The notes: generated by a model not told the origin, from the sequence alone. DNA of 64,000 bases from Streptosporangiaceae bacterium NEAU-GS5 (GCA_017592665.1 JAGFNW010000007.1:1-64000), one strand, 5' to 3'. Counted from the stretch's first letter, positions 24,025 to 49,683 are shown. Made by a program: numbers and translations.

Positions 24025-24131
24025 GACCGGATATTTCCCGTTAAAGGGTTCGCTATCACTTCGTAGAAACGGTCAGATCGCCACGAATGCGTGGGAATAG
24101 GCATATAGGTGTCTATTCTTCGGGGGCGGGC

Positions 24132-29982: not shown

Positions 29983-30832
29983 GGAGACTCTCTCTCTGCG
30001 GCACCACCCGGGCGATCGCCCGCGCGGCCAGCCAGGTCCGGTAGATCAGGGCCGCCTCGAACGCCAGCAGCAGCGCCCCCGCGCCCGCCGCCGCCGGAAT
30101 GAAGGCGTCGACGCCGATCAGAGGCGCCCACACGAAGACGGCCGCGTGGAACTCGATCCCGCTCACCATGTGGGTGCGCACGCGGTGCCGCACCAGGAAT
30201 CGGCGGAGGCGGTCGTACCAGGGGAATCGGGCGCGGAAGTCGCGCTGCAGGTCCACAAGCGGACGCTCGTCGCGTGAGACGAGCAGGTCCGGATTGGCCC
30301 CTGGATCGGCCGCGAGCACGTCCTCCACGAACAGGCACTCCGCGCCCATCCGGGTCGTGACCATTCCCCGCGACGCCGCCCGCACCCGATTGAGCTGGGA
30401 CACGTTGATGTAGCGGAACATGTCGAGCACGACCACCCCGACGGCGGCCAGCAGCACGTCAAGCCGCCAGCAGCCGTACGCGATGCCGAACGCGCAGCCG
30501 AGCACGCGGATCCGGTCGCCGACGTAGTCCAGCCACAGGCCGAACGGCGTGCCGTTCCCCTTGAGCCGGGCCACCTTGCCGTCCATGCAGTCGATCATGA
30601 AGCTCAGGTAGAACAGCGCGGCCCCCGCCACGAGCTGGTCCTGTGCGAACGCCCAGGCCGAGCCGAAGCCCACCAGGATCGACAGCCGGGTCAGCCCGTT
30701 CGGCGTCACCGAGGTGTGGTTCGCCGCCAGCAGTGCTAGCCGGCAAGCGAGCGGGTCGACGAAGAAGACGGTCCACCAAGAGTCCCGTTGCTTTCGCGCC
30801 GCCAGAATGTCATCGAGCGTGAAGCCCCCCAT
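29975..30832 (-). CDS. CDP-alcohol phosphatidyltransferase family protein
   Basis: About 285 residues from ATG 30832; the frame continues upstream but conservation does not. The full catalytic signature D-x2-DG-x2-AR-x8-G-x3-D-x3-D is present, from DCMDGKVARLKG to LDYVGD. Several TM segments follow. Such enzymes move a phospho-alcohol from a CDP carrier to a second alcohol, for example in phospholipid synthesis. Its operon with two sulfotransferases beside teichoic-acid-type genes suggests a lipid or polymer-linkage role rather than housekeeping phospholipid synthesis. Confidence 0.88.
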   Translation of the reverse strand: MGGFTLDDILAARKQRDSWWTVFFVDPLACRLALLAANHTSVTPNGLTRLSILVGFGSAWAFAQDQLVAGAALFYLSFMIDCMDGKVARLKGNGTPFGLWLDYVGDRIRVLGCAFGIAYGCWRLDVLLAAVGVVVLDMFRYINVSQLNRVRAASRGMVTTRMGAECLFVEDVLAADPGANPDLLVSRDERPLVDLQRDFRARFPWYDRLRRFLVRHRVRTHMVSGIEFHAAVFVWAPLIGVDAFIPAAAGAGALLLAFEAALIYRTWLAARAIARVVPQRESLLV

Positions 30833-30907
30833 GAAGGTAAGAATGGCTACGGCGAGTAGTCGGGCAGGGACGGGATCGCGACAGGCGTGCCATCTCGTTG
30901 CCACTTC

Positions 30908-30935
30908 TTGACCAACGGGCTGACGTGGGTAAACC
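30908..30935 (+). promoter_or_regulatory. Possible promoter of the Stealth gene
   Basis: TTGACC (30908-30913) and TAAACC (30930-30935) are 16 bp apart and lie 44 bp before the Stealth GTG start. The -35 hexamer is good and the -10 is weak. This is offered only as a candidate. Confidence 0.3.
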
Positions 30936-30979
30936 CTCCGCCATGGAGGTGAGGGGCCGCATGCTTTGGGGGGACACTC

Positions 30980-32569: not shown

Positions 32570-35481
32570 CGCTTCAGAAGGCGGTCTACGACGCGGGAGG
32601 CGGCCCGGCCGTCGTCCCACGGGCAGTAGGCCGCCTGGAAGGCCTCATACCGCTGCTTGTACGCGCCCGGGTCGAGGCCGCGCAGGGCGTCGGCCAACTC
32701 GCCGGTCGTGCTGACGATCGGGCCCGGGGCGCACGCCTCGAAGTCCATGTAGAAGCCGCGCACCTGATCGCGGTAACGGGCCAGATCCGGGCAGAGGAAG
32801 ACCATGGGCCGGCCCGTGGACGCGTAGTCGAACATGGCCGACGAGTAGTCCGTCACCAGGACGTCGGCGGCCAGCAGCAGATCGGCCATGTCGGGATAGC
32901 GGGAGACGTCCAGCACGCGCGGCCCAGAATGGGCGGCGATCCGATCGGCCACCAGGTAGTGCGCGCGCACCAGCAGGACGTGGTCCTCGGGCAGCGCGGC
33001 GGCCGCGCGGCCGAGGTCGAACGGCAGGCTGAGCCGGCCCCTGCCCGCGTGCTCGTCGTCCCGCCAGGTCGGGGCGTACAGGACGAGCCTCGCCTCGTCG
33101 GAGACGCCGAGGCGGCGGCGCACCCCGGCCGCGAGCTCCGGGCGGAAGAGCAGGTCGTTGCGCGGATACCCCGATTCCAGCATCTCGCCCCCGTATTCGA
33201 AGGCACGCCGGAAGATGGGCGTCGAGAACGGGTTGGGCGAGACGAACAGGTCCCACATGGTCGAGTAGCGGTCGAGGTCCTCGTAGAGGTCGCGCTGGCC
33301 GTACGGCATGTCCTTGATGTCGGAGCCGAGCCGCTTGAGCGGGGTGCCGTGCCAGGTCTGGACGAAGAACTGCCCGCGACGCTTGGCGTACCAGGCGGGC
33401 TGGGTCCTGCGGTTGACGATCACGTAGCGGCTGGTGGTCAGGGCTTCCTCGTGGGCGCGAGAGCCGTACAGGACCTGGCGGACGCCGCTGGGGGCGGGCA
33501 GCGGCGCGTCGCGTGTGACCCAGATGAGGTCCACGCCACCGCGCCGCGCGAGTTCCTCGGAGATCGCCCGTGGATTGCACGAGTACTGCGCGCCGCCGTA
33601 GCTGTCGAACAGGGCCGCCTCGCGCAGGGGCCCGCGCCGCCGCGCCGTGCCCCGCCTGCGGTTGACGTAGCGGCCGCGCTCGTCCGGTCCCAGAGCGGGC
33701 CGTACGGCGAGGCTGACCGCGTTGCCGGGGCCGATCCGGAAGGACATCTCCTGGAACCCGTTCGTACGGGGCGCCGGCAGATCCGCCGCGAGCGCGGGGG
33801 CCGCGCGGAGCGGCTGCCCGCCCACCTCGACGCGCCATGTGCCGCTCCGCAGGTCGCGGTTGAGCGGCCGGGATTCGGGGCCGGACACCAGCATCGCCCC
33901 GGGCAGGCCGCGAAGCGTGCCGTCGGGCGCCCATTCCAGGCGGTCGACGCCGCCGACCAGATCCGGGCATCCGGCGCAGCCCTCTACGGCCGTGACCATG
34001 AGCCCGTCGTCGCAGCTGAGCTCCGGATGGAGGCAGAGTGGGCCCGGAATGGGCGGCAGCAGCCGGTCGCCGCCCTTCGACGAGGCCTTGAACAGGCCTT
34101 CGCGGACGACCCCGCGTGCGACGACCTCACCGTGGAGCCGCCAGGTCCCGGCGGCGTCGAGGCAGGTGGGATCGAAAGAGGCGACGAAGCCCGAGTTGTC
34201 GTGGTTGACCGCGGACTGCCGGGAGTCGGCCGTCACGTCCGGCCGGGCCACACGCGTGATGTCCAGGTTCACACGCCGATCGCCGCAGGCCAGCCAGAGG
34301 GCGAGGTCGCTGCGGGAGCTGTCGAGCCACCGGATGTAGGCGTGGCCGGAGATCTCGATCCGGCCGCCCGTGTAGCGCACGTCGTCGACCCGGCCCCGGA
34401 GGGTCATCTCACGCTCGGCGTCGTAGAGCTCCTGGGGGATGCGCTGGTCGCCCCGGAATGGATAGTCGGAGTACCAGCGGGGCTTGAACAGGCCGCGCCG
34501 TACGGCCGCGCGGTCCGGCAGCCGTGTCCTGACGAAGTCGACGACCTCGCGCAGTTCGGCGGTCATTCCGGTGCGGATCAGGTGGAGCTGCAGGCGGTCC
34601 ATCCCGGACAGCCGTTCCACGGCGGCCGGGTCCAGCCAGCCCAGGACCGACCGGCCGAGCTCGACGAACGGATCCAGATCGTGGGCCGACGCAACCGCCT
34701 CGAGCAGGAAGGCGATGTCGGTCTCCGCGATCACCCGGTCGTGCCGGCGGCGCAGGCGGCGGGCGTGCTGGTCGAGGAAGTCGGCCACCACGCGCATGGT
34801 GGCGAACCGGTCCCGCAGGTTGCCGAGGTCGGTCCGCTGTGCGGTGATCGAACCGGGCCGCTGCCGCCACAGGTAGACGGCGTCGCCCAGCACGTCGGTC
34901 GAACGCGAGAGCACGTGGGCCGGGATCGTCACGGGACAGTCCTCGTAGCGTCCCGGCGGGAACACGAACCCGTGCTGGTCCCAGAAGGAACGCCGGAAGA
35001 CCTTGTTCCAGGCGGTCCGGTCGCGCATCAGCTCGCGGTGCTCACGGATGTGCGTGGTCTGCAAAGTCTCCTTGAAGGCCGGCCGGTGGATGCGCGAGGC
35101 CCGCGTGCCGCTGTCGGTGACCCGGAGCACCCCGCCACAGGCGAGGTCGCTGCCGGTCTCGTCGAGGGTTCCCACGAGCTTCTCGTACGCCTCGGGGAGG
35201 ACGACGTCGTCGCTGTCGGCGAAGGCGAGGTAATCGCCGCGGGCGTGCCGCGCGCCGGTGTTGCGCGCCGGGCCGAGGCCCTGGTTGTCCTGGGTGATCA
35301 CACGGAAACGGGGGTCGGATTCGGCGGCCGCGTGGGCGATGGCCGCGCTGCCGTCGCGCGATCCGTCGTCCACGAGGATGATCTCGATGTCGGTGAGCGT
35401 CTGCGTTCTCAACGAGTCAAGGCACTCCGCGATGTACGCCTCGACATTGAAGAACGGCACGACCACGCTGAGCTTCGCCAT
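32566..35481 (-). CDS. Second GT2-TagF fusion (teichoic-acid-type polymerase)
   Basis: About 971 residues from ATG 35481, where GT2 homology begins (MAKLSVVVPFFNVEAYIAEC); the open frame upstream was rejected. GT-A domain: IILVDDGSRDGS, LAFADSDDVV. The middle (about 390-620) looks beta-rich, with IEISGHAYI and WRVEVGGQPL, perhaps a carbohydrate-recognition or TarF-like insert. The C-terminal TagF domain has QTWHGTPLKRLG, LYAPTWRDD and VTDYSSAMFDYAS. It is a paralogue of the protein at 24132 but much diverged. The role is inferred as polymerising a glycosyl-polyol phosphate backbone. Confidence 0.9.
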   Translation of the reverse strand: MAKLSVVVPFFNVEAYIAECLDSLRTQTLTDIEIILVDDGSRDGSAAIAHAAAESDPRFRVITQDNQGLGPARNTGARHARGDYLAFADSDDVVLPEAYEKLVGTLDETGSDLACGGVLRVTDSGTRASRIHRPAFKETLQTTHIREHRELMRDRTAWNKVFRRSFWDQHGFVFPPGRYEDCPVTIPAHVLSRSTDVLGDAVYLWRQRPGSITAQRTDLGNLRDRFATMRVVADFLDQHARRLRRRHDRVIAETDIAFLLEAVASAHDLDPFVELGRSVLGWLDPAAVERLSGMDRLQLHLIRTGMTAELREVVDFVRTRLPDRAAVRRGLFKPRWYSDYPFRGDQRIPQELYDAEREMTLRGRVDDVRYTGGRIEISGHAYIRWLDSSRSDLALWLACGDRRVNLDITRVARPDVTADSRQSAVNHDNSGFVASFDPTCLDAAGTWRLHGEVVARGVVREGLFKASSKGGDRLLPPIPGPLCLHPELSCDDGLMVTAVEGCAGCPDLVGGVDRLEWAPDGTLRGLPGAMLVSGPESRPLNRDLRSGTWRVEVGGQPLRAAPALAADLPAPRTNGFQEMSFRIGPGNAVSLAVRPALGPDERGRYVNRRRGTARRRGPLREAALFDSYGGAQYSCNPRAISEELARRGGVDLIWVTRDAPLPAPSGVRQVLYGSRAHEEALTTSRYVIVNRRTQPAWYAKRRGQFFVQTWHGTPLKRLGSDIKDMPYGQRDLYEDLDRYSTMWDLFVSPNPFSTPIFRRAFEYGGEMLESGYPRNDLLFRPELAAGVRRRLGVSDEARLVLYAPTWRDDEHAGRGRLSLPFDLGRAAAALPEDHVLLVRAHYLVADRIAAHSGPRVLDVSRYPDMADLLLAADVLVTDYSSAMFDYASTGRPMVFLCPDLARYRDQVRGFYMDFEACAPGPIVSTTGELADALRGLDPGAYKQRYEAFQAAYCPWDDGRAASRVVDRLLKR

Positions 35482-35575
35482 GCTGACAGCATCCTGAGAG
35501 CGGGGATGACGGCCCTCGCACACATCGATTGCCTTGCCTGCGCCTGACCCAATCTTTGGATGTACGCTGTGCGTC

Positions 35576-36097
35576 GTGTCGGACACGAAGAGTGATCTGC
35601 GCCCGCTGGACGACGCGGATCTCGGCGTCGTCCTCGGGTGGCGCAACCATCCGCGGGTCCGGGAGAGCAGCTTCACCACCCACGCGATCGGCTGGGCCGA
35701 GCACCGGGCGTGGTGGGCCGCGGTCCGGCTTGATCCGGCCCGTGAGGTGCTGGTCTATCGGCACGACGGCGTCGCTTCGGGCGTCGTCGCCTTCGAGCAC
35801 GTCCGGCCCGGCCACGCCGAGTGGGGGTTCTACCTCGACGTCGAGGGCGTCGAAGAGCGGGGGCAGACGCTCGCGGCCTGGCTCGGCATCGAGCGGGCCG
35901 CGATCGCGCACGCGTTCGACGCACGTGGGGCGGCCGTCCTCGAGGGCCACGTGCTCGCCGACAACCACGCGGTGCTGAGCCTGCACCGCAGATTCGGCTT
36001 CACCGAGGTCGAGCGCTACACCCGGGCCGTGGACGGGGCGCCGCGCCAGGTGGTCAGGGTCCGTCTCGCCAAGCCTTCGACGAAGGAGTCTGCATGA
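35576..36097 (+). CDS. pseH: PseH-like N-acetyltransferase (GNAT)
   Basis: 173 residues from GTG 35576. GNAT fold: LRPLDDADLGVVLGWRNHPRVRESSF, then EWGFYLD and VLADNHAVLSLHRRFGFTEVERYTR. The WRN and F-T/S pattern matches the PseH/RimJ-like group that acetylates UDP-4-amino-4,6-dideoxy-AltNAc. No Shine-Dalgarno sequence is visible, so the mRNA may be leaderless. Its stop overlaps the pseI start in ATGA, which strongly supports the pathway assignment. Confidence 0.88.
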   Translation: MSDTKSDLRPLDDADLGVVLGWRNHPRVRESSFTTHAIGWAEHRAWWAAVRLDPAREVLVYRHDGVASGVVAFEHVRPGHAEWGFYLDVEGVEERGQTLAAWLGIERAAIAHAFDARGAAVLEGHVLADNHAVLSLHRRFGFTEVERYTRAVDGAPRQVVRVRLAKPSTKESA

Positions 36098-37137
36098 TCA
36101 GCATCGCCGGGCGGCCGGTCGGCCCCGACCACCCGCCCTTCGTGATCGCCGAGATGTCGGGCAACCACAACGGCGACCTCGGCCGGGCCCTGGCCATCGT
36201 CGACGCCGTGGCCGCGTCCGGGGCGCACGCGCTCAAGCTGCAGACCTATCGCGCCGACACGATCACCGTCGACGTCGACCTGCCGGCCTTCCGGATCAGC
36301 CCCGAGCACGAGCTGTGGGGCGGGGAGAATCTCTACCGGCTCTACGAGCGCGCCCACACCCCCTGGGAGTGGCATCGGCCGATCTTCGAGCGGGCCGCCA
36401 AGCACAGGCTCGCGGTCTTCTCCGCGCCCTTCGACCCGACCGCCGTCGATCTGCTCGAGGGCCTCGACTCCCCGGCGTACAAGATCGCCTCATCGGAGAT
36501 CGTCGACTTGCCGCTGATCCGGCTCGTGGCGCGCACCGGCAAGCCGCTGATCATCTCGACGGGCATGGCCGACGCGGCGGAGATCCACGCGGCGGTGGCC
36601 GCGGCCCGCGGCGCGGGCTGCGCCGAGTTGGTGGTGCTGGCCTGCACGGCCTCCTATCCGGCCTCGCCGCGCGACAGTCACCTGCGGGCGCTGCCGGTGC
36701 TGTCGGCCGTGTGCCAGGCGCCGGTCGGGGTGTCCGATCACACGCCGGGCATCGGCGCGGCGCTGGCGGCGGTCGCGCTGGGCGCGTGCGTGATCGAAAA
36801 ACACGTCACCCTGTCGCGGGCCGAGGGCGGCGTCGACGCGGCGTTCTCGCTCGAGCCGCACGAGCTGGCGGCGCTCGTCGAGGAGAGCGAGCGGGCATGG
36901 CTGTCGCTCGGCACGGCCGCGCTCGGGCCGCGTCCGTCGGAGCGAGAGGGCCTGCGCTTCCGGCGCTCGCTCTACGTCGTCGCCGACGTGAAGGCGGGCG
37001 AGCCGGTCACGCCACACAACGTCCGCTCGATCCGCCCGGCCGGCGGCCTGGCCCCGGCGCTGCTCGACACCGTCCAGGGGCGCCGCTTCGTCCGCGACGT
37101 GGCGATGGGCACGCCGCTCAGCTGGGATCTGATCTAG
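36094..37137 (+). CDS. pseI: Pseudaminic acid synthase (NeuB family)
   Basis: 347 residues from ATG 36094. It condenses phosphoenolpyruvate with 2,4-diacetamido-2,4,6-trideoxy-L-altrose. NeuB barrel: FVIAEMSGNHNGDLGRAL, LKLQTYRADTIT, PAYKIASSEIVDLPLI, ISTGMAD, CTASYPA, VGVSDHTPGIG and EKHVTLSR. The C-terminal SAF antifreeze-like domain (about 290-347) reads RSLYVVADVKAGEPVTPHNVRSIRP. The wording EMSGNHNGD and LYRLYERAHTPWEWH is typical of PseI rather than NeuB/LegI. It is coupled to pseH. Confidence 0.94.
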   Translation: MISIAGRPVGPDHPPFVIAEMSGNHNGDLGRALAIVDAVAASGAHALKLQTYRADTITVDVDLPAFRISPEHELWGGENLYRLYERAHTPWEWHRPIFERAAKHRLAVFSAPFDPTAVDLLEGLDSPAYKIASSEIVDLPLIRLVARTGKPLIISTGMADAAEIHAAVAAARGAGCAELVVLACTASYPASPRDSHLRALPVLSAVCQAPVGVSDHTPGIGAALAAVALGACVIEKHVTLSRAEGGVDAAFSLEPHELAALVEESERAWLSLGTAALGPRPSEREGLRFRRSLYVVADVKAGEPVTPHNVRSIRPAGGLAPALLDTVQGRRFVRDVAMGTPLSWDLI

Positions 37138-38729: not shown

Positions 38730-39599
38730 CTAAACGCCGAGCAGGGCGTCGGCCACGCGCACGCGGCCCAGACCGTCGATGGGGCGCTCGCCCGGCGGCT
38801 CGCGGCGCTCGATGGCGACCGGCAGCGTCCGCGCCAGGTCCTCGCCTCGACCGAGGGCGAGGGCCAGCCCGCGCCCGACCAGCGCGCGGTAGCCGGTCAG
38901 CTGGTTGTCGGCCACCCAGGTGAGCGCGGCCGGCGCCCCCAGATAGAGCAGCTCCCAGATGGCCGACCCGGCGGCGGTGACCACCAGGTCGGCCTCTGTC
39001 ATGAGCCGGGGCAGCCGGTCGGTCGGCCCGATCGCCTCCACTCGTTCGTACGAGCGAGTGGCCCCGACGACGGTCGCGGTCACGGGCAGGCCGGAGAGGA
39101 CCTCCGCGACGAGCGGGGCGAGGCCTGCGGCGTCGGTGCCGCCGAAGAAGCACAGCACATGCGGCAGCTCGCGCTGGGGAGGCGCCCAGCGCAGCCGCAG
39201 GACGTTGTCCCGGAGCAGCACGTAACGCTCGCCTGCCAGCCAGCGGGAGTCGAGGGGTTGGGCGCCGAGGTTCTGGTCGAGGTAGAGGTCGGCCTCCTGG
39301 CCCCGGGCGTCGCCACCGTCGACGATCGCGAGGACGCGCCGCCCGGCCGCCCGGTGGCGAGCGCCCGTGCCGGGCGGGAGCGTGTAGGAGTCGAGGACGA
39401 CCGCATCCGCCGCGTCCGACCGCCCGCGTGCCAGCCCGCGCCGCGTGAGCTGCGCCTCGGCCCACGCGAGGCCGCCGAGGTCGGCGTCGAACACCACCTC
39501 GGCCCCGCGCGCGGCCAGCTCCTCGGCCAGCGCCACGCAGCGCATGAGGTGGCCCACCCCGGCCGATGGCCCGGCGTCGCACCGGAACGCCACCCTCAT
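38730..39599 (-). CDS. pseG: UDP-2,4-diacetamido-2,4,6-trideoxy-altrose hydrolase
   Basis: 289 residues from ATG 39599, which overlaps the pseF stop as ATGA. GT-B-like fold with the catalytic His17 in GVGHLMRCVALAEEL, then VVLDSYTLPP, LCFFGGTDAAG and ADLVVTAAGSAIWELLYLGAPAA. PseG removes UDP to give the free hexose used by PseI. Its start was set by homology; the open frame upstream reads through pseF sequence. Confidence 0.92.
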   Translation of the reverse strand: MRVAFRCDAGPSAGVGHLMRCVALAEELAARGAEVVFDADLGGLAWAEAQLTRRGLARGRSDAADAVVLDSYTLPPGTGARHRAAGRRVLAIVDGGDARGQEADLYLDQNLGAQPLDSRWLAGERYVLLRDNVLRLRWAPPQRELPHVLCFFGGTDAAGLAPLVAEVLSGLPVTATVVGATRSYERVEAIGPTDRLPRLMTEADLVVTAAGSAIWELLYLGAPAALTWVADNQLTGYRALVGRGLALALGRGEDLARTLPVAIERREPPGERPIDGLGRVRVADALLGV

Positions 39600-40339
39600 G
39601 CCTGCTGCAGCTCCTTCTGCCGGACGTGCGCGTTGAGCGCGCTCACCTCGGGATGCGCGCGCAGCCACGACACCAGCGTGCCCACGGGGACGGCACGGTC
39701 ACCGAACTCGCCGGCCACGCGCTCGATCACCGCCCAGTCGTCCGGAGTGTCCAGGGTGACCCGGAGGTCGGAGGCGTCGGGCGCGTAGGTCAGGCCGAGC
39801 ACCCGGAAATCCTCGGGGTGACAGTACGCATATGAGGTGACGTGCGCCCGGTGATATCCAGTGGCGAGCGCATCGATCCTGCGAAGCGCGTCGACCGAGA
39901 CGACCTCTGCGTCGCCCGCGCCACGCGGCAGCGTGTGCGGCAGGCCGAGACTGACGTAGTCGACGTTGCCCTCGGCGTTGACGGCCGCGAACACGGCCGC
40001 CGCCTGCCGCAGGACCGCCGGATCGAGCAGCGGGCAGTCGGCCGTGAGCCGCATCACCGCCCCCGTCGCGCCGCCGAGCGCCTCGACGAAGCGGGTGAGC
40101 ACGTCGTCGACCGGCCCCCGATGACAGCGCACCCCCAGCCGGGCGCACGCGGACGCGACCGCGTCGTCCTCCGTCTCCGTAGTCGTGGCGACGATCAGGT
40201 CGTCGAGCGCGCCCGACTGCTCGGCGGCGCGTACGACCCAGCCGAGGACCGACCTGCCGCGCAGGTCGCGAAGGACCTTGCCCGGCAGCCGGGTCGACCC
40301 CATGCGTGCTTGAACCACCCCGACGATATCCACAGGCAC
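39596..40339 (-). CDS. pseF: CMP-pseudaminic acid cytidylyltransferase
   Basis: 247 residues from a GTG start. The cytidylyltransferase N-terminus VGVVQARMGSTRLPGKVLRDLRGRSVLGW is followed by LRLTADCPLLDP and DYVSLGLPHTLPRGAGDAEVVS. This is the SpsF-like group often used in place of NeuA in pse and spore-coat clusters. It activates pseudaminate with CTP. Its overlap with pseG and divergence from pseB fix the pathway. Confidence 0.88.
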   Translation of the reverse strand: MPVDIVGVVQARMGSTRLPGKVLRDLRGRSVLGWVVRAAEQSGALDDLIVATTTETEDDAVASACARLGVRCHRGPVDDVLTRFVEALGGATGAVMRLTADCPLLDPAVLRQAAAVFAAVNAEGNVDYVSLGLPHTLPRGAGDAEVVSVDALRRIDALATGYHRAHVTSYAYCHPEDFRVLGLTYAPDASDLRVTLDTPDDWAVIERVAGEFGDRAVPVGTLVSWLRAHPEVSALNAHVRQKELQQA

Positions 40340-40408: not shown

Positions 40409-41389
40409 ATGAGTGTGCTGACCGGCTCGTCGATTCTGATCACCGGGGGGACCGGCTCGTTCGGCAAGGCGTTCCTGCGGCACGCGCTCGACCATCTTGA
40501 CCCGCGCCGCGTCGTCGTCTTCTCCCGCGACGAGCTGAAGCAGTACGAGGCGCGCCAGAGCTTCACCGACGACCGGATCCGCTGGTTCATCGGCGACGTG
40601 CGCGACCGCGACCGGCTGACGCGCGCCATGCACGGCGTCGACTACGTGGTCCATGCGGCCGCGCTCAAGCAGGTCGACACGGCCGAATACAACCCGTTCG
40701 AATATGTGCGCACCAACGTCACCGGCTCGCAGCACGTGGTGGAGGCGGCGATCGACTGTGGTGTGCGCAAGGTCGTCGCGCTGTCCACCGACAAGGCGTC
40801 CAGCCCCATCAATCTCTATGGGGCGACCAAGCTCTGCGCCGACAAGCTGTTCATCTCGGCCAACCACTACGCGGCGGCTTATAAGACCCGGTTCGCCGTG
40901 GTCCGCTACGGCAACGTGATGGGCAGCCGCGGCTCGGTGGTGCCCTTCTTCCTGAAGCTGGCGCGCGAGGGGCGCAGCCTGCCGATCACCGACAAGCGGA
41001 TGACCCGCTTCTGGATCACGCTCGACCAGGCCGTCCGGTTCGTGGTCGGCTCCTTCGATCTGATGCAGGGCGGCGAGCTTTATGTGCCGCGCATCCCCAG
41101 CATGCTGGTCACCGATCTCGCCGAGGCCCTCGCCCCGGGCGCGTCCATCTACGAGATCGGCATCCGCCCCGGCGAGAAGGTGCACGAAGAGATGATCGCC
41201 CCGGACGACGGCCGAAGGACGTTGCGACTGCCCGATCGCTATGTGGTTCAGCCGACCATCGCCGACTGGGGATATGTGCCGCCGCAGCGGGGCGAGTCGC
41301 TTCCGGAGGGCTTCGCCTACCGGTCCGACTCCAATGATCAGTGGCTGACCGTCGAGCAGCTGCGCGAGATGACCACGGTGACCGTCTGA
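40409..41389 (+). CDS. pseB: UDP-GlcNAc 4,6-dehydratase (inverting)
   Basis: 326 residues from ATG 40409, with a G-rich ribosome site. Rossmann motif GGTGSFG (13-19). The STDKASSPINLYGATK segment holds the Asp128-Lys129 pair and Tyr137-Lys141 of the inverting (5-epimerising) dehydratase. It performs the first pathway step. A clean promoter could not be placed in the 69-bp divergent gap to pseF. Its stop overlaps the pseC start (TGATG). Confidence 0.95.
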   Translation: MSVLTGSSILITGGTGSFGKAFLRHALDHLDPRRVVVFSRDELKQYEARQSFTDDRIRWFIGDVRDRDRLTRAMHGVDYVVHAAALKQVDTAEYNPFEYVRTNVTGSQHVVEAAIDCGVRKVVALSTDKASSPINLYGATKLCADKLFISANHYAAAYKTRFAVVRYGNVMGSRGSVVPFFLKLAREGRSLPITDKRMTRFWITLDQAVRFVVGSFDLMQGGELYVPRIPSMLVTDLAEALAPGASIYEIGIRPGEKVHEEMIAPDDGRRTLRLPDRYVVQPTIADWGYVPPQRGESLPEGFAYRSDSNDQWLTVEQLREMTTVTV

Positions 41390-42501
41390 TGCTGCCCTAC
41401 GGACGGCAGTCCATCACCGAGGCCGACGTCGCGGCGGTCGTGGAGGCGCTGCGCGGCGACTGGCTGACGACCGGCCCCCTCGTGCCCGCGTTCGAAGCGG
41501 AGCTGGCCCGCTGGACCGGCGGCGTGCCGTGCGTCAGCGTCACCTCGGGCACGGCCGCGCTCCACGTCGCCTATGCCGCGGCCGAAGTGCGGCCGGGCGA
41601 CGAGGTCATCGTGGCGCCCATGACGTTCGTGGCGACCGCGGCCACCGCCGCTGTGCTGGGAGCACGGGTCGTCTTCGCCGACGTCGAGCCCGACACGGCC
41701 ATCCTGTCGCCCGATGCGGCCCGGGCCGTGCTGACGCCCCGCACCAAGGCCATCGCCGCCGTCGACTACGCCGGCCATCCGGCCGACTACGACGCGCTCC
41801 GGGAGCTCGGCGTCCTGGTGATCGCCGACGCGGCCCACTCCATCGGCGCCACCTACAAGGGCGAGCCGGTCGGGTCGCTGGCCGACCTCACCACGTTCTC
41901 GTTCTTCCCCACCAAGACCGTCACCACGGCCGAGGGCGGGGCCGTGGCCGCGCGGGATCCCGAGCTGTACGACCGCGCGGCCCGCTTCAGGAACCACGGG
42001 CTGGTCCGCGACCCGGCGCGGCAACGCGATCCCGAGCACGGCGGCTGGCACCAGGAAGTGCACGACTTCGGTCTCAACTATCGGCTGCCCGACGTGCTGT
42101 GCGCGCTCGGCCTGAGCCAGTTGCGCCGCCTGGCCGACTTCCGCGCCCGGCGCGCCGAGCTGGTGGCACGCTACGACCGCCTGCTCGCCGATCTGCCGGG
42201 GCTGGCCGTGCCCGCCCGCCGCGACTACGTCGAGCCGTCCTGGCACCTCTATCCGGTGCGGATCTTCGGCGGTCGGCGCCGCGAGGTCTACGACCGGATG
42301 CGCGCGGCCGGCATCGGGGTCCAGGTCAACTACATCCCGGCCTACTGGCATCCGGTCTTCGCCGACCTCGGTTATCGGCGCGGCATGTGCCCCAATGCCG
42401 AGGCCTTCTATGCCGAGCAGCTGTCGCTTCCGCTCTTCCCCGACCTGTCGTCCGCCGACCAAGACCGGGTGGTCGAGACGCTGCACGAGATCCTGGGCTG
42501 A
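41389..42501 (+). CDS. pseC: UDP-4-amino-4,6-dideoxy-N-acetyl-beta-L-altrosamine transaminase
   Basis: 370 residues. DegT/DnrJ/EryC1 fold: TSGTAALHVAYAAAEVRPGDEVI, PLP-binding Asp in IADAAHSIG, and Schiff-base Lys176 in FSFFPTKTVTTAEGG. It transfers an amino group from glutamate to the 4-keto sugar made by PseB. It is coupled to pseB, and the next gene begins four bases after its stop. Confidence 0.94.
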   Translation: MLPYGRQSITEADVAAVVEALRGDWLTTGPLVPAFEAELARWTGGVPCVSVTSGTAALHVAYAAAEVRPGDEVIVAPMTFVATAATAAVLGARVVFADVEPDTAILSPDAARAVLTPRTKAIAAVDYAGHPADYDALRELGVLVIADAAHSIGATYKGEPVGSLADLTTFSFFPTKTVTTAEGGAVAARDPELYDRAARFRNHGLVRDPARQRDPEHGGWHQEVHDFGLNYRLPDVLCALGLSQLRRLADFRARRAELVARYDRLLADLPGLAVPARRDYVEPSWHLYPVRIFGGRRREVYDRMRAAGIGVQVNYIPAYWHPVFADLGYRRGMCPNAEAFYAEQLSLPLFPDLSSADQDRVVETLHEILG

Positions 42502-42505
42502 CCTC

Positions 42506-43378
42506 ATGCACCACGCCAACCATTTCTACGGCCACGCGGCGATCATGGCTCGCTACTGCGGCTACAAGGTCGATCCGCCGCGCATCCGGGGCTTCCTGCA
42601 GCACGGGTGGAACATCATCGACGGCTTCGCCCCCGGCATGCCCTATGTGCCGGGGGTGCCGCGGTTCCTGTGGTCCTCCGGCCCCGTCCGGCGCGGCCTG
42701 CCCAACGGGCACCGCAATGGCTACGCCATCGGCGCGCCGTGGCTCTATCTGCTCGATCAGAAGCCCGATCCGGGCGGCCCGCGGCGCGGCACGATCTGGT
42801 ATCCGTTCCACGGCTGGGAGCAGCAGGAGGTCCTCGGCGACCACAGCGCGCTGATCGCCGAGATCCGCGAGACCGAGCCGGAAGATGTCACTGTCTGCCT
42901 CTATTGGGCCGAATACGAGAATCCCGCGGTCCGGCGGCTCTATGAGCGCGTGGGCTTCCGGGTCATCTGCCACGGCTACCGCGGCCACTGGTGGAATCGC
43001 ACCGACCCCGATTTTCTCTATCGGCAGCTGGCCGAGCTGCGCCGCCACCGCCGGGTCGCCTCCAACCGGCTGAGCAGCGCCATCTTCTACGGCATCGCCG
43101 CCGGATGCGAGCCGGCCGTCTACGGCGACCCCATGGTGCTCACCGACGAACACCCGGTCTTCGGCGGCGTGGCCCGCATCCGCCGCCTGTGGCCCGAGCT
43201 GCACGGCCACCAGATCGACTTGGCCACGGCCCGGCAGATCGCCGACCACGAGCTGGGCGCGGCATTCCTGGCCCACCCCGCCGAGATCCGCGAGCTCTTC
43301 CACTGGCGTCCGCACCCGCCCACCACCACGTGGGCCGACCGCCCTCCCTTGGAGATGGCATGTCCGACATCCACGTGA
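42506..43378 (+). CDS. Unassigned protein in the pse operon, possible glycosyltransferase
   Basis: 290 residues from ATG 42506. I do not recognise the family. It is rich in aromatic residues and opens with YGHAAIMARYCGYKVDPPRI, then a HGWNIIDGFAPG segment, IWYPFHGWEQQE, VTVCLYWAEYENPAVRRLYERVGFRVICHG, and SNRLSSAIFYGIAAGCEPAVYGDP. The last stretch resembles the C-terminal donor-site loop of GT-B enzymes, where an Asn-Ser-Ala pattern precedes a Gly-x-Pro. Its position right after pseC makes it a candidate pseudaminyltransferase. Other possibilities are a sugar-modifying enzyme or a polymer export factor. Confidence 0.7.
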   Translation: MHHANHFYGHAAIMARYCGYKVDPPRIRGFLQHGWNIIDGFAPGMPYVPGVPRFLWSSGPVRRGLPNGHRNGYAIGAPWLYLLDQKPDPGGPRRGTIWYPFHGWEQQEVLGDHSALIAEIRETEPEDVTVCLYWAEYENPAVRRLYERVGFRVICHGYRGHWWNRTDPDFLYRQLAELRRHRRVASNRLSSAIFYGIAAGCEPAVYGDPMVLTDEHPVFGGVARIRRLWPELHGHQIDLATARQIADHELGAAFLAHPAEIRELFHWRPHPPTTTWADRPPLEMACPTST

Positions 43379-45744
43379 GCACCCACCCCCCCACCCCCGA
43401 ATCCCCCAAAGCCCCGACCGCCCTGGAAGCCCCGGAAGCGCCCGGAGCCCCGGAAGCCCCCAGACCCCCGGAAGCCGCCAGAGCTCTGGAAGCCGCCACG
43501 ACAACCCCCCAAGCCCCAGAAGCCACCGCGGCAGCCGCCCAAGCCCCAGAGCACAGCCGGATCCCGGAGCACCTCGGGACCCCAGAGCACCCCCGGACAC
43601 CAGAGCCCCGCCACCCACCAGGCGGCATCATGCCTCCCCCAGCAGCGCACTCCCCCATCCCCCACCAACCAACCCCCGCCACAGCACCCCACCACCCGGA
43701 CGATGCCACACCCCGCCAACCAACCCCCGGCACCGCGGCTCACCACCCGGACGATGCCACACCCCCCCAACCAACCCCCGGCACCGCGGCTCACCGACCG
43801 GCGCACCCCGGCATCCCCCACCCAGCGCACCCCGCCGTGCCACACCAGCCGGCGCACCCGGGCACCGCCACATCGCCGCGGACGACACACGACCCGAGAG
43901 CGACACACGACCCGAGAGCGACACACGACCCGAGAGCGACACACGACCCGAGAGCGACACACGACCCGAGGGCCCATGAGTCACTGGACGACTCGGGGGC
44001 GAGGTGGGGCTTGGGAGCTCTTGGTGGCGTAGCGAGGCCTCGTGGGTCCGCGTCCGACGTTCATGTGATCGGTGGCGAGATGGCCGAGTGGACCGACCTG
44101 CCGTCCGGCGACTGCGGCGAGTTGGCCGCGCTTGTAGCGGCTCCCGGCGACCGCGTGCTGCTCGCCGGAGTCAACCGCCTCGACGTCGCCGACCGCCTCC
44201 TCGCCGTAGGTGCGCACGTCACGTGCCTGCTCCGCGGGCTCCTCGACGCGGAGACGGTCCGCGGGGCCTTCCCCGGCGACGACCGGCTGACCGTGCTCGC
44301 GGGTGCGATCGACTGGCTGCCCGACGAAGCCGCCTTCGACGTTATCGTGGCGCCGGACGGCCCGGGCCGCCTCCTCAGCCCCGACAGCGGCCTGCTCGAC
44401 TGGCCCGCCGTGCTCGCCCGTCTACGGCGCGCGCTGGCCACCGGCGGGCGGCTCGTCCTCGGCGTGGAAAATCCGCTCGGCGTCCACCGCCTGGCCGATA
44501 CGCGCGTCGACGGCTGGCTGGCTCCCGCCGAGTTCGCCACCACCTGCCCTGCCAACCTCGCCGCCGTCCGCACCGCACTCGCCGACCACCACCTGACCGC
44601 CATCCGCGCCTACGGCGGATTCCCGTCATTCGACAACCCTCAGGTCCTGGCCGACGCCGACAGGCTCTCCTCCCACGCGACCGACGCCGTCATCTGCGGG
44701 CCTTTGTCCCGCTGCAGCCCGCCCGACGGTCCTGCGCTGCTCGATTCCGTACGGCTCTCGCTCAAAGCGTGGCGGCACGGCCAGGGAGCGGCACTCGCAG
44801 CGGGCTGGTTCGTGGTCGCCTGCGACCGCGACGGCCTGAGCCCCGACCTTCCCGACGCGATCTGCCGCGAAAGCCGTGATGGTGCGCACGCCACCTACGA
44901 GCTGCGCATCGCCGACGGCCGATGGCACCGCGTGCTGCTGTCCGGCGAGGCCACGCTCAGTGGCTGGGATCCCAAGCGGTTCACCGGCACGCCACCGGCC
45001 ACGCCGTCCCTCGAAGACCTGCTGGTAAGCGCATGCGTGCGGCAGGATCGGGCGGAGATCCGGCGCCTCCTCCGGGAGTACGCGGCCTGGGGCAATCCGA
45101 CCGCCCTCGACAACACGCTCCCCGACCCCGAATCCGGCGGCGGATTCACCCCCGCCGATCCGACATGGGCGCGACCCGCTGATCAGAGCATCGCGCATGC
45201 CCTGGCCCGCTTCGCCGTACGGCTCATCGAGTCGGGCGCGGCGCATCCATGGCCGACCACACTCACGGCCGACCAGCTCACGGTCCTGCTGGGCCACCTC
45301 GCCGGGGTCACGGTCACACCCGTCAAGACGCCGGCGACACCTGCGACCCGGAGCCGGGGCATGGGCCTGGCCGAGGCGCTGACCGAGATCGCCCGGCTCC
45401 GGACCGCCGTGTCCACCGCATACGGGCACGTCACCTGGCTGGAAGAGATTCTGGCCAGCCGCGAGCGGACCATCAAGCAGTTGCGCCGCAAAGTCCGGCG
45501 GCGCACCAACGAACTGCGACGGCTGCGCGGTTCACTCGCCGTCCGTTTCTCGCGGGCGCCGCGCAGACTCCTCGACCGTTCGAGCACCCGCGTCTCCCTG
45601 CCCATCGGCCCGCAACACGAGGTCCGTGACGACGAGGAGACCTCGCTGCGCAAACGGATCGCCGACCTCGAAACCGAGCGGCGCGCTCTCACCCGGGCCG
45701 CCCGACACTTCGCCCAGGAGGCCACGCATGACGCAACGCCTTGA
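43360..45744 (+). CDS. Methyltransferase-like protein with repetitive N-terminus and C-terminal coiled coil
   Basis: 794 residues if started at ATG 43360 (GGAG seven bases upstream, 19-bp overlap with the previous gene). Residues 1 to about 215 are Pro/Ala/His-rich, with a repeated 17-residue block and five THDPRA units. A SAM-methyltransferase-like Rossmann region follows (GDRVLLAGVNRLDVADRLL; FDVIVAPDGPGRLL; LATGGRLVLGVENPLG), then a long unassigned part, and a basic coiled coil (about 680-790, ASRERTIKQLRRKVRRRTNEL). The acceptor is unknown. A downstream start near GTG 44064 or ATG 44080 would remove the repeats. Confidence 0.75.
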   Translation: MSDIHVSTHPPTPESPKAPTALEAPEAPGAPEAPRPPEAARALEAATTTPQAPEATAAAAQAPEHSRIPEHLGTPEHPRTPEPRHPPGGIMPPPAAHSPIPHQPTPATAPHHPDDATPRQPTPGTAAHHPDDATPPQPTPGTAAHRPAHPGIPHPAHPAVPHQPAHPGTATSPRTTHDPRATHDPRATHDPRATHDPRATHDPRAHESLDDSGARWGLGALGGVARPRGSASDVHVIGGEMAEWTDLPSGDCGELAALVAAPGDRVLLAGVNRLDVADRLLAVGAHVTCLLRGLLDAETVRGAFPGDDRLTVLAGAIDWLPDEAAFDVIVAPDGPGRLLSPDSGLLDWPAVLARLRRALATGGRLVLGVENPLGVHRLADTRVDGWLAPAEFATTCPANLAAVRTALADHHLTAIRAYGGFPSFDNPQVLADADRLSSHATDAVICGPLSRCSPPDGPALLDSVRLSLKAWRHGQGAALAAGWFVVACDRDGLSPDLPDAICRESRDGAHATYELRIADGRWHRVLLSGEATLSGWDPKRFTGTPPATPSLEDLLVSACVRQDRAEIRRLLREYAAWGNPTALDNTLPDPESGGGFTPADPTWARPADQSIAHALARFAVRLIESGAAHPWPTTLTADQLTVLLGHLAGVTVTPVKTPATPATRSRGMGLAEALTEIARLRTAVSTAYGHVTWLEEILASRERTIKQLRRKVRRRTNELRRLRGSLAVRFSRAPRRLLDRSSTRVSLPIGPQHEVRDDEETSLRKRIADLETERRALTRAARHFAQEATHDATP
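43884..43973. repeat. Five 18-bp in-frame tandem repeats (THDPRA)
   Basis: GACACACGACCCGAGAGC is repeated five times without interruption; the last copy has one change. Each codes for six residues, so copy-number change keeps the frame. A 51-bp in-frame repeat with HHPDDATP and QPTPGTAA blocks lies just before it, at about 43693-43797. Confidence 0.92.
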
Positions 45745-45970
45745 AGACGTCTTCAAGACCGCCCTTCGACTGACCGACGAGGTCGACGTTTCCAGCCTCG
45801 AATACCGCGGCGTCCCCCAGTGGGATTCGCTCGGCCACATGACGCTCATCGCGGCCATCGAAGACGAATACGGCATCACCATCGACACCGACGACGTGAT
45901 CGACCTCAATTCGTACGCGAAGGCCGTCGCCCTGCTGGAGAAGAACGGTGTCCCCGTCACCACCACCTGA
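45728..45970 (+). CDS. Acyl carrier protein
   Basis: 80 residues. The phosphopantetheine attachment Ser lies in PQWDSLGHMTLIAAIEDEYGI, the standard D-S-L motif with a following acidic helix. It is a discrete ACP, distinct from a fatty-acid synthase AcpP by its WDSLGHM variant, which is common in polysaccharide and signalling clusters. It overlaps both neighbours (45728-45744 and 45948-45970) and therefore is co-translated with the methyltransferase-like protein and the AMP-ligase. It needs a phosphopantetheinyl transferase from elsewhere. Confidence 0.93.
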   Translation: MTQRLEDVFKTALRLTDEVDVSSLEYRGVPQWDSLGHMTLIAAIEDEYGITIDTDDVIDLNSYAKAVALLEKNGVPVTTT

Positions 45971-47282
45971 CCCGGATCTGCCGCGCGGCCACGTGATCGA
46001 CGTGGACGGGCGGCGGCATCAGGCCGGGGCCCTGGTGCGCGACCTCGACGGTCCGCCAGGCGTGCTGTTCTGCGCCATGCGGACCGACCTGACCTCGGTC
46101 GGCCTCTACCTCTCGGCGTTGGCCGCACGGCGACCGGTCGCGCTGCTCGATCCTGGGCTCTCCACCGACGCCCTCCCCGAACTGGCCGATCGCTACCGGC
46201 CGGCCCTGATCGCCGGCTTCGATATCGGCGACCTGCCCGGATACCTCGAGCAGGCGCCCGGCGTGCACCGCTCGGCCGGCGACCCCGCACCCGTCCACCC
46301 CGACCTCGCGCTCCTGCTGCCCACCTCCGGCTCGACCGGCAGCCCCAAACTCGTACGGCTATCGCGAGCCGCCGTGCTCGCCAACGCCCACTCGATCGCC
46401 GCCGCCCTCGCCATCGGCCCCGACGACGTCGCGCCGACCAGTCTGCCCCTGCACTACAGCTACGGCCTGTCGGTGCTCAACAGCCATCTGCACGCCGGCG
46501 CGACGGTCGCGCTCATCCCGCACAGCCTGGTCGAACGTCCCTTCTGGACGGCCATGACCGAGCGCGGCTGCACCACGCTCGCCGCCGTGCCGTACCAATA
46601 TGAGATGCTCGCGCGGCTGCGGGCCGACCCGAGGCGCTGCCCGACGCTGACCACGCTCACCCAGGCGGGCGGCCGGCTCCGCACCGACCTGATCCAGCAT
46701 TTCAGCTCGCTCGTCGATCGCTTCTTCGTCATGTACGGGCAGACCGAGGCGACGGCGCGGATCGCGATCCTGCCGGCCGGCAGACTGGCCGACAAGCTCG
46801 GCTCGGCCGGACGCGCCATCCCCGGCGGCGCGCTGAGCACGACCGACGACGGAGAGATCGTCTACGACGGCCCCAACGTGATGATGGGCTACGCCGAGTC
46901 GGCCGACGACCTGGCATGCGACGACGTCATGCGTGGCCGGCTGCCGACCGGCGACCTCGGCCACCTCGACGGCGAGGGCTTCCTCTACGTCACCGGCCGG
47001 ATGAAGCGGATCGCCAAGGTGTTCGGGGTCCGGGTGAATCTCGACGACGTGGAGCGGCTGCTTCGCGGGAGCGGGCCGGTGGCCGCCGTCAGCGGCGATG
47101 ACCGGCTCGTGGTCTACGCCGAGGGCGCCGACGCGGCCGCCTGCGCCACCCTGACGGCTCGGCTGTCGTCGCTGCTCAACATGCATTGGAGCGGCTTCGA
47201 CGTACGGGCGCTCGACCGGCTCCCGGTGCTCGCCACCGGCAAGATCGACTATCGCACTCTGGAGCGCCTTTGTTCACGCTGA
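45948..47282 (+). CDS. AMP-dependent acyl ligase
   Basis: 444 residues from a GTG start. ANL-superfamily motifs are all present: LLPTSGSTGSPKLVRLS (P-loop), MYGQTEATARIAI, TGDLGHLDGEGFLYVTGRMKRIAKVFGVRVN, and the C-terminal catalytic Lys in LPVLATGKIDYRTL. The N-terminal domain is shorter than in typical acyl-CoA synthetases. It overlaps the ACP gene, so it probably activates a carboxylic acid and loads it on that ACP. The acid is unknown. Confidence 0.9.
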   Translation: MSPSPPPDPDLPRGHVIDVDGRRHQAGALVRDLDGPPGVLFCAMRTDLTSVGLYLSALAARRPVALLDPGLSTDALPELADRYRPALIAGFDIGDLPGYLEQAPGVHRSAGDPAPVHPDLALLLPTSGSTGSPKLVRLSRAAVLANAHSIAAALAIGPDDVAPTSLPLHYSYGLSVLNSHLHAGATVALIPHSLVERPFWTAMTERGCTTLAAVPYQYEMLARLRADPRRCPTLTTLTQAGGRLRTDLIQHFSSLVDRFFVMYGQTEATARIAILPAGRLADKLGSAGRAIPGGALSTTDDGEIVYDGPNVMMGYAESADDLACDDVMRGRLPTGDLGHLDGEGFLYVTGRMKRIAKVFGVRVNLDDVERLLRGSGPVAAVSGDDRLVVYAEGADAAACATLTARLSSLLNMHWSGFDVRALDRLPVLATGKIDYRTLERLCSR

Positions 47283-48301
47283 CGCGGTCCGAGCGCGAGG
47301 AGCGCCTCTTGCCGGAGCTCAACCGGCTGACGGTTCATCACCGGGAGGCCTGCGCGCCCTATCGGCGGATTCTGGACGCGCTCGGCGTCCGGTCGCCGTT
47401 CGACTCGATCGCCCGACTGCCCTGGCTGCCGGTCCGGCTGTTCAAGACGCATGATCTGCGCAGCATTACCGACGACGCTGTGTTTCGCGTGCTGACCTCC
47501 AGCGGGACCACCGGGCGGCCCAGCCGGATCCACCTCGACCGCGAGGCCGCCGCCACGCAGACGCGGACGCTGGCCGCGACCTTCCGGTCCGTGATCGGTG
47601 ACCGTCGGCTGCCCATGCTGATCGCCGACTCCCCGTCGGTCGTACGCGATCCCACGCTGAGCGCCCGCGGCGCCGGAGTGCTGGGGATGATGAACTTCGG
47701 GCGCGACCACACGTTCGCGCTCGACGCGGCAGGGCGGCCCGACCCCGTCACGGTCGAGCGTTTCCTGAGCCGCTACGGCCACCGGCCGTTCCTCGTGTTC
47801 GGTTTCACGTTCATGGTGTGGCTCTATCTGTACGAGACGGCCGCGGCGCGCGGGTGGGATCTGGGCAACGGGGTGCTCATTCATTCCGGCGGCTGGAAGA
47901 AGCTGGCCGACCAGGCCATCGACAACGCCGAGTTCCGCCGCCGCTTCGCGGCCGCCACGGGGCTCACCCGGATTCACAACTTCTACGGCATGGTCGAGCA
48001 GATCGGCACGATCTTCCTGGAGGGGCCGGACGGCGAGGGGCTCTACTGCCCCGACATCGCCGACATCGTCGTACGCGACCCCTCGACGTGGCGCGAGACA
48101 CCGGTCGGCGTGCCCGGCCTGATCGAGGTGGTCAGCACTCTGCCGGTGTCCTATCCGGGGCATGTGCTGCTGACCGAAGACCTCGGCGTCATACACGGCG
48201 TCGACGACGGGGCCTGGCCGGGCAAGCGCTTCTCCATCCTTGGCCGGCTGCCCAGGGCAGAGGCCCGCGGCTGCAGCGACACCTTCCACGAGGCCGCCTG
48301 A
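47270..48301 (+). CDS. LuxE-like acyl-protein synthetase
   Basis: 343 residues from TTG 47270, with GGAG five bases upstream. It overlaps the ligase gene by 13 bp. LuxE/PaaK features: LTSSGTTGRPSRIHLDREA (AMP loop), VFGFTFMVWLYLYETA, HSGGWKKLADQAI, RIHNFYGMVEQIGTIF, and a C-terminal Cys335 in ARGCSDT. In Photobacterium LuxE, a Cys near the C-terminus accepts the acyl group before passing it to LuxC. The presence of that Cys and of a LuxC homologue next door implies a working fatty-acid-reductase-type pair. Confidence 0.9.
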   Translation: MFTLTRSEREERLLPELNRLTVHHREACAPYRRILDALGVRSPFDSIARLPWLPVRLFKTHDLRSITDDAVFRVLTSSGTTGRPSRIHLDREAAATQTRTLAATFRSVIGDRRLPMLIADSPSVVRDPTLSARGAGVLGMMNFGRDHTFALDAAGRPDPVTVERFLSRYGHRPFLVFGFTFMVWLYLYETAAARGWDLGNGVLIHSGGWKKLADQAIDNAEFRRRFAAATGLTRIHNFYGMVEQIGTIFLEGPDGEGLYCPDIADIVVRDPSTWRETPVGVPGLIEVVSTLPVSYPGHVLLTEDLGVIHGVDDGAWPGKRFSILGRLPRAEARGCSDTFHEAA

Positions 48302-49683
48302 TGATCACCTACGCCCTCACGCCGGAGTCGGCGGCGCAGCTGTGCGCCGACATCGCTCGCGTGCCGCCCGACGGCCCGCTGGCCGTGGGTGACCCGCGCA
48401 TCATGGACTACCTCGCCGCCGTGTCGCGACGGCTGCTCGATCCAGCGCTCGTACGTCGCCACCCCGAGTTGGCGCCCCTCGGTTTCTTCCTGCGCCCGGC
48501 CGAAACGAGGCAGATTCTGCGCGGCCTGGAAACCCCCGGCGCCGTACGCGTCCCGCAAGGACTGGTCTTCCACATTCCGCCGGCCAACGTGGACACGGTA
48601 TTCGTCTACTCGTGGGCCCTGTCGGCGCTGACCGGCAATCGCAACATCGTCCGTCTGTCCCCGCGGTCAGGCCCGGCAGCGACCGCCGCCATCGAGGTTC
48701 TCGCCGACGCACTCGTCGACGCCCATCCGGCTGTCGCCCAGACCCAGCGGGTCGTGTCCTACGGCCGCTCCGACGAGATCACCGCAGCCCTGTCGGCCGC
48801 CTGCGACCTGCGCGTCATCTGGGGCGGCGACGAGGCCGTACGCCAGATCCGCCGCCACCCGCTCACCCCCCACGCCCGCGACCTGACCTTCCCCGACCGG
48901 TCGTCGTTCACCGTGATCTCCACGTCGGTCTGGCACAACGCCTCCGATGCCGTACGCGATCGAGTAGCCCGAGACTTCGCCAACGACGCCTACTGGTTCG
49001 ATCAGGCCGCCTGCTCCTCCCCTCGGACCGTCTTCTGGCTCACCCCACCCGAACCCGCCGACCCCACGACGTCCGCCCCAGGCATGGGGGCAGCCACCAC
49101 AGACACCACCACAGCCACCGCAGACACCGCAGCCGCCACAGGCATGGGAGCAGCCGCCGCAGACACCGCCGCAGCCGCAGCCGCAGCCGCAGCCGTCAAG
49201 GATGACTTCACCCGTCGGCTGGCCGCCGCTGTGACCAGCGGCGACTGGACCGTCGATCCCGCAATGGCCGTTGAGCAACGCGTCTCCACGTACGGTCTGG
49301 CCGCAGCCGCCCTCGCCGACAACCTGCAGTTCAGCGGCACAGCAGTGGCCAGCTACGACCTTCCCGCAGACCTGCCTCCCGCCGCCGCGCTCCCCCGCCG
49401 CTGGCTCGGCCTCGGCGTATTCGCGCACTGCGTCCTCGCGTCCCTGGACGACCTGGTTCCAGTCGTGACACGCAAGGACCAGACGATGACCCACTTCGGC
49501 CTCACCGAGCCCCAATTGCGCGGCTTCGCCGAGGCCGTCGCGGGACGCGGCGTCGACCGGATCGTCCCCATCGGCTCTGCTCTCGCCTTTGCCGCCACCT
49601 GGGACGGTATCCACCTCCCCAGCGCCTTCTCCCGTCTGGTCACCATCCAGGCGGGCGCGAAAACTGTCGGTGGCGGTGTCTAG
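48301..49683 (+). CDS. LuxC-like acyl-protein (acyl-CoA) reductase with low-complexity insert
   Basis: 460 residues from ATG 48301, coupled to luxE by TGATG. Aldehyde-dehydrogenase-like fold: GLVFHIPPANVDTVFVYSWALSALTGNRNIVRLSPRSG, and the catalytic Cys238 in FDQAACSSPRTVFW. LuxC reduces an enzyme-bound acyl thioester to aldehyde with NADPH. An insert of about 50 Ala/Thr/Gly residues (about 251-299) directly follows the catalytic segment and looks like a repeat expansion. It is the last gene of the long operon from pseB. Confidence 0.9.
   Translation: MITYALTPESAAQLCADIARVPPDGPLAVGDPRIMDYLAAVSRRLLDPALVRRHPELAPLGFFLRPAETRQILRGLETPGAVRVPQGLVFHIPPANVDTVFVYSWALSALTGNRNIVRLSPRSGPAATAAIEVLADALVDAHPAVAQTQRVVSYGRSDEITAALSAACDLRVIWGGDEAVRQIRRHPLTPHARDLTFPDRSSFTVISTSVWHNASDAVRDRVARDFANDAYWFDQAACSSPRTVFWLTPPEPADPTTSAPGMGAATTDTTTATADTAAATGMGAAAADTAAAAAAAAAVKDDFTRRLAAAVTSGDWTVDPAMAVEQRVSTYGLAAAALADNLQFSGTAVASYDLPADLPPAAALPRRWLGLGVFAHCVLASLDDLVPVVTRKDQTMTHFGLTEPQLRGFAEAVAGRGVDRIVPIGSALAFAATWDGIHLPSAFSRLVTIQAGAKTVGGGV
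49060..49197. repeat. In-frame low-complexity expansion in the luxC-like gene
   Basis: This stretch is built of GCAGCC, ACCGCAGAC and GGCATGGG(A/G)GCAGCC blocks coding Ala, Thr, Asp and Gly-Met-Gly-Ala. The frame is kept. Compared with the expected LuxC layout it is extra sequence between conserved parts. Confidence 0.75.

Follow-up and report, generated by a model that had tools for sequence, protein, structure and literature searches.

The 64,000-nucleotide stretch of Streptosporangiaceae bacterium NEAU-GS5 (GCA_017592665.1 JAGFNW010000007.1:1-64000), hereafter the window, carries beside its pseudaminic acid (Pse) genes a cassette for an acyl carrier protein (ACP), an adenosine monophosphate (AMP)-forming ligase and homologues of LuxE and LuxC. 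Comparison with relatives reveals that the complete unit has five genes, ACP–SDR–ligase–LuxE–LuxC, the additional one encoding a FabG-type short-chain dehydrogenase/reductase (SDR). Because the SDR gene is present in all relatives and absent from the unit in the window, the cassette described here is a four-gene remnant or variant of the five-gene unit. As judged from sequence, the unit may be an acyl-donor module for the N-acylation of amino sugars via a short hydroxyacyl-ACP, and not a system for light or long-chain lipid, a reading to which we give about even odds.

The cassette genes

The four genes overlap head to tail, every start overlapping the stop of the gene before it.

45728..45970, + strand: ACP, dedicated acyl carrier protein (PF00550, E 5.5e-6; WDSL phosphopantetheine motif)
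45948..47282, + strand: AMP-forming acyl ligase, probable acyl-ACP synthetase (PF00501, E 2.2e-32; TSGSTGSPK motif)
47270..48301, + strand: LuxE-like acyl-protein synthetase (PF04443, E 1.7e-44; TSSGTTG motif; C-terminal Cys)
48301..49683, + strand: LuxC-like acyl-protein thioester reductase, predicted to form an aldehyde (PF05893, E 1.7e-29)

All four are real members of their families, and the recurrence of this order in scores of genomes excludes a chance arrangement. The serine motif DS[LVIMT] of the ACP is kept in 92 of 92 homologues. The nearest solved structures to the ligase are carrier-protein adenylation enzymes and coenzyme A ligases. The most probable start of LuxE is TTG 47270, and the best match of LuxE in the PDB is the LuxE chain 7xc6_E of a LuxC-LuxE complex (E 5.6e-13). 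Its TSSGTTG motif is conserved across 99 sequences, at least 97% of which also keep the Cys at residue 335 (numbered from TTG 47270). LuxC starts at ATG 48301, and its Cys238 is invariant among actinobacterial, Deinococcus and Rhizobium relatives. The Pfam model PF05893 covers only half of the LuxC length; the AlphaFold model of the protein (mean predicted local distance difference test, pLDDT, 77) matched 7xc6_A best, with E 2.9e-11 over 451 columns, followed by aldehyde dehydrogenases. The first-pass annotation had placed four overlapping genes here and had described both cysteines as kept, and the Pfam matches, coordinates and conservation in relatives agree with it. Its proposal that LuxE and LuxC reduce a carboxylate with a dedicated ACP and ligase is likewise supported, as a predicted function.

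Both lux homologues score far under the lux-specific cut-offs, LuxE reaching 67 of the 550 bits required by its NCBIfam equivalog model and LuxC 43.8 of 750. The scan of the flanking genes, which did not extend to other parts of the genome, found no luxAB or luxD.

The five-gene unit and the missing reductase

Genome contigs searched with LuxE yielded 539 matches, of which the nearest 80 were examined. Nearly all of these keep the order ACP, ligase, LuxE, LuxC. When fetched family members are added, a FabG-type SDR gene lies between ACP and ligase in 91 of 91 relatives' loci that have both neighbours. The window alone of the 92 loci compared is without it, and there the ligase start overlaps the ACP stop. 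Elsewhere in the window genome there are 88 SDR-type matches, the best of which are ~38-41% identical to the SDR of the unit.

The loss can be read in other ways. The unit may be decaying in this genome and make no product, as the absence of the SDR, unique among the loci compared, might indicate together with a low-complexity insertion of ~43 residues, rich in Ala, Thr and Gly, which follows the catalytic Cys region of LuxC and is not seen in aligned relatives. Decay is nevertheless quite unlikely, considering that the four frames are open, that LuxE is still ~70-76% identical to close relatives, and that catalytic residues and overlaps are kept. Alternatively, the aldehyde may itself be the end product, giving an N-(oxoacyl) or reductively N-alkylated sugar, above all in this SDR-less strain, where ACP, ligase, LuxE and LuxC are intact. 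Three points make this improbable: all relatives keep the SDR, the SDR-type proteins encoded elsewhere in the genome could substitute for it, and no amine-reducing partner was seen. Since the SDR is gone in the window genome only, there is a slender chance that the LuxC aldehyde persists in this strain, where a Pse with an N-(oxoacyl) aldehyde could cyclise or cross-link the wall. The first-pass annotation had allowed for decoration with an acyl- or an aldehyde-derived group; the former is likely, and the aldehyde is less likely as an end product than as an intermediate.

The unit also occurs outside close relatives of the window. A class-wide search showed such a LuxE to be rare (3 of 395 at E<=1e-80, counting the window's own genome). 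On a Deinococcus plasmid a PglD-type acyltransferase comes after the five genes, and no pse genes lie nearby. A more distant version (LuxE ~41% identical) lies on the Rhizobium beringeri plasmid pRlX3 (L139, 4327-15376), where LuxE-LuxC occur with ACP, an AMP-binding enzyme, an acyltransferase that looks PglD-like in sequence and two transketolase halves, in addition to an SDR, a GMC oxidoreductase and FabZ; this gene set may represent a different acyl or sugar pathway employing LuxCE. A plasmid of Streptomyces europaeiscabiei (L160, NZ_CP109155.1, 1-8360) has a distant LuxE-LuxC pair beside DUF692, metallo-beta-lactamase (MBL)-fold and YcaO proteins, which suggests that LuxCE is employed there in a peptide natural product cluster. 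One pse locus (L141 of genome G037, ~15625), in which nothing matched GNAT, ACP, ligase, LuxE or LuxC, encodes an SDR that shares ~50% identity with that of the cassette.

Association with pse genes

The link to pse genes is real but not universal, and the tie breaks outside the window's family. Within that family, 17 of 201 genomes carry a close relative of the window LuxC, and all 17 have a PseI above the curated cut-off (Fisher p 1.7e-19, kinship uncorrected). PseI occurs without the cassette in 7 of the 24 PseI genomes of the family, that is, in 7 of its 184 cassette-free genomes. Outside Nonomuraea, 21 of 40 cassette genomes have no PseI above the cut-off anywhere in the genome. The first-pass annotation had tied the unit to pseudaminate and would have given this up if most relatives had the four genes together but no pse genes; the nearest 80 relatives provide 76 informative loci, and the count is a near tie, with pse genes in 39 and none in 37. 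The position in an amino-sugar locus has stood up, and the specific tie to Pse has not: Nonomuraea apart, roughly half of the close relatives have the cassette beside another amino-sugar pathway. The pse-free loci contain a Gfo/Idh/MocA oxidoreductase and/or an LpxA-like acyltransferase in 34 of 37 cases, mostly together with a DegT aminotransferase, and a GNAT adjoins the unit in 3.

That half of the relatives have the unit without pse is also what would be expected if it served another part of the same wall polymer, such as another amino sugar or a polyol, and not Pse. The window locus also encodes a Stealth protein, sulfotransferases and two GT2/glycerophosphotransferase-like proteins, which speaks for this reading. 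The co-occurrence with pseI in 17 of 17 family genomes and the run of overlapping genes, all read the same way, from pseB to luxC in the window argue against it, and its probability is slight.

Acyltransferase partners

An amino-sugar acyltransferase accompanies the unit constantly; the sugar pathway varies. Three types border the unit, namely LpxA-like, GNAT and, in Deinococcus, PglD-type. In 26 loci an LpxA-like gene precedes ACP at a distance of 30-180 bp, and its phmmer matches are LpxA acyl-ACP enzymes. An orthologue of the window GNAT directly adjoins the cassette in loci L078, L086, L090, L074 and L077. This constancy of the acyltransferase with a varying sugar pathway fits a unit that supplies acyl groups in activated form. 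Where E. coli LpxA has Gly173, the aligned residue of the LpxA-like partners is Met (Leu in 1 of 22), at a position which we take to set chain length, Met there presumably meaning a short acyl chain.

Proposed function

Gene content and order, catalytic residues, the LuxC fold, co-occurrence and acyltransferase adjacency, all observed, are the basis from which we infer each reaction, substrate and product of the following route. LuxE would adenylate a small dicarboxylic acid (C4, for instance succinate or malate) at one of the two carboxylates and carry the acyl group on the LuxE Cys, and LuxC would reduce the bound acyl group to the semialdehyde with NAD(P)H. The SDR would turn the aldehyde into an alcohol; in the window it may be supplied in trans, or lost. 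The AMP-ligase would then charge the dedicated ACP with the hydroxy acid so formed, and from this ACP an N-acyltransferase (GNAT/PseH in the window, LpxA-like or PglD-like in other loci) would transfer the acyl group to the sugar amine, in Pse at N-7. The wall polymer would thereby carry a 4-hydroxybutyryl- or dihydroxybutyryl-type Pse. Its two adenylating enzymes, with the reductase and an SDR, suit the activation of two carboxylates. Two carboxylate-activating enzymes would be superfluous in a simple fatty-acid reductase; both would be called for if a dicarboxylate were reduced at one end and loaded onto ACP by the other. Donation of an acyl group to the sugar nitrogen is probable, and a reduced dicarboxylate as its source is put forward tentatively.

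That the acyl group is short is hinted at by the Met at the ruler position of the LpxA-like partners and by the mass of one Pse. Aeromonas piscicola AH-3, which has the five genes, makes a Pse derivative of 376.14 Da with an unexplained 102-Da terminal moiety. Computed masses are 316.127 for Pse5Ac7Ac and 376.148 for Pse with one acetyl and one dihydroxybutyryl group, and the 102-Da moiety equals one dihydroxybutyryl (102.03, computed). The match at 376.14 Da is a lead, not a proof, and speaks against a long lipid on that residue.

The same five genes have been reported between pseBC and pseFGHI in the Aeromonas group II flagellin islands of 98 strains (PMC7874193), and LuxE/LuxC/ACP/FabG/ligase genes in enterobacterial flagellin islands of 71-80 strains (PMC4875605). 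The Aeromonas islands contradict the first-pass annotation, which knew of no LuxCE pair tied to pseudaminate; the enterobacterial islands have the same gene classes. Both papers call these fatty-acid genes and suggest a lipid-modified sugar or 'liposugar' (PMC7874193, PMC4875605), for which the unit would work as in bioluminescence and form a fatty aldehyde or alcohol of long chain. The homology of LuxE and LuxC to the fatty-acid reductase complex 7xc6 agrees with this. A Pse only 60 Da above Pse5Ac7Ac in a unit-bearing strain is too small for a long chain, and the Met at the ruler position and scores far under the lux-specific NCBIfam cut-offs point the same way, so that a liposugar is unlikely.

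Several observations weigh against the short-hydroxyacyl reading as well. The window unit is without SDR. PseH is no clear outlier, since all pse genes differ between cassette and non-cassette loci and the divergence of PseH is only slightly above that of the others. The 376.14 Da also fits two lactyls or hydroxybutyryl plus glycolyl. The LuxE/LuxC relatives of luminous bacteria use long-chain acids, and the enzyme activities of the unit and the glycan of this organism are predictions from genes. The literature on acyl groups of actinobacterial wall Pse yielded nothing useful, and two papers that deal with nonulosonic acids, one in Vibrionaceae and one in Clostridium, are silent on such genes. 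Yersinia ruckeri O1, which has a 4-hydroxybutyryl sugar and in which serotype-specific ACP, ligase and SDR genes exist, was set aside; LuxE/LuxC neighbours could not be checked there.

Labelled 'fatty acid synthesis', the unit is found again and again, in Actinobacteria, Deinococcus and Alphaproteobacteria and, according to publications, in Gammaproteobacteria. If true, the short-hydroxyacyl reading would explain it across differing sugars and acyltransferases, give LuxC and LuxE a new biological role and allow particular masses to be predicted for flagellins and wall polymers.

The surrounding locus

The genes pseB, pseC, pseF, pseG, pseH and pseI are present in the window, pseH as a generic GNAT gene, together with two further genes of the locus.

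35534..36097, + strand: GNAT acyltransferase at the pseH position, proposed user of acyl-ACP (PF13302, E 3.4e-9; generic GNAT)
36094..37137, + strand: pseI, pseudaminic acid synthase (TIGR03586, 445.5 bits, above cut-off 340)
38730..39668, - strand: pseG-like hydrolase (TIGR03590, 117.6 bits, below cut-off 153.6)
39596..40339, - strand: pseF-like cytidylyltransferase (PF02348, E 7.6e-27; orthologues in pse loci of relatives)
40409..41389, + strand: pseB, inverting UDP-N-acetylglucosamine (UDP-GlcNAc) 4,6-dehydratase (TIGR03589, 490 bits, above cut-off)
41386..42501, + strand: pseC, aminotransferase (TIGR03588, 414 bits, slightly below cut-off 423.5)
42506..43378, + strand: orf7, conserved locus neighbour, possibly a GT-B-like glycosyltransferase (weak Foldseek matches)
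43360..45744, + strand: orf8, with a proline-rich N-terminus, a middle that is methyltransferase-like by eye and a helical C-terminus (orthologues in family loci)

Only PseB and PseI score above their cut-offs; PseC, PseG and PseF are below theirs, yet the order is conserved. The orthologue of the GNAT adjoins pseI in family genomes. In the window, pseF and pseG are divergent from pseB, and pseI and the GNAT lie ~3-5 kb to the left. A Pfam search gave no match for the orf7 protein, and Pfam and NCBIfam searches gave none for the orf8 protein. The orf7 model is of low confidence (pLDDT 68.5), and Foldseek matched it weakly to GT-B enzymes, none at E<=0.001.

The genes pseB, pseC, orf7 and orf8 and then the cassette follow one another with overlaps or gaps of at most 4 bases, a spacing from which pseB through luxC are likely one operon. 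That the cassette is the tail of an operon led by pseB-pseC, as first annotated, is made likely in this way, and for this genome only. Both orf7 and orf8 are conserved in family pse loci, cassette present or not; they lie on the opposite strand in cassette-bearing family relatives and are inverted in the window by comparison, so that the single operon is particular to the window genome. Further to the left, window positions 24087-35679 encode two proteins that each join a GT2 to a CDP-glycerol glycerophosphotransferase-like domain, along with two sulfotransferases, a Stealth protein and a CDP-alcohol phosphotransferase; a group 1 glycosyltransferase also lies on this side. These genes suggest a putative phosphate-containing, possibly sulfated wall polymer.

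Comparison with known systems

The GnnA/GnnB/LpxA route leads to N-acylated GlcNAc3N. The unit resembles it in Amycolatopsis and others, where it stands with Gfo/Idh, DegT and LpxA-like genes, and in the dependence of N-acylation on acyl-ACP. These lipid A pathways differ in that their hydroxyacyl-ACP is long and comes from fatty-acid synthesis, and they are not known to include LuxCE. The genes for the N-(3-hydroxybutyryl) group of flagellin viosamine in Pseudomonas syringae likewise place an ACP-linked short hydroxyacyl group onto an amino sugar from within a glycosylation island, but are not known to include LuxE or LuxC. The LuxC-LuxE complex of Photobacterium (PDB 7xc6) shares a homologous synthetase and reductase with catalytic Cys residues; it is without an ACP/ligase/SDR unit, is fed by LuxD and makes a long-chain aldehyde for luciferase. 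Enterobacterial flagellin islands contain the Acp, LuxE, LuxC, FabG and CaiC classes inside glycan loci with various sugars, and pse is not required (PMC4875605). The Aeromonas group II islands, compared by description and not by sequence, have the same gene classes beside pse in the same listed order as the full actinobacterial unit; they belong to a flagellin glycan of a Gram-negative organism and keep the reductase gene (PMC7874193). Overall, the unit is known in outline from flagellin islands, and here it occurs in an actinobacterial wall-polymer locus as an SDR-less variant.

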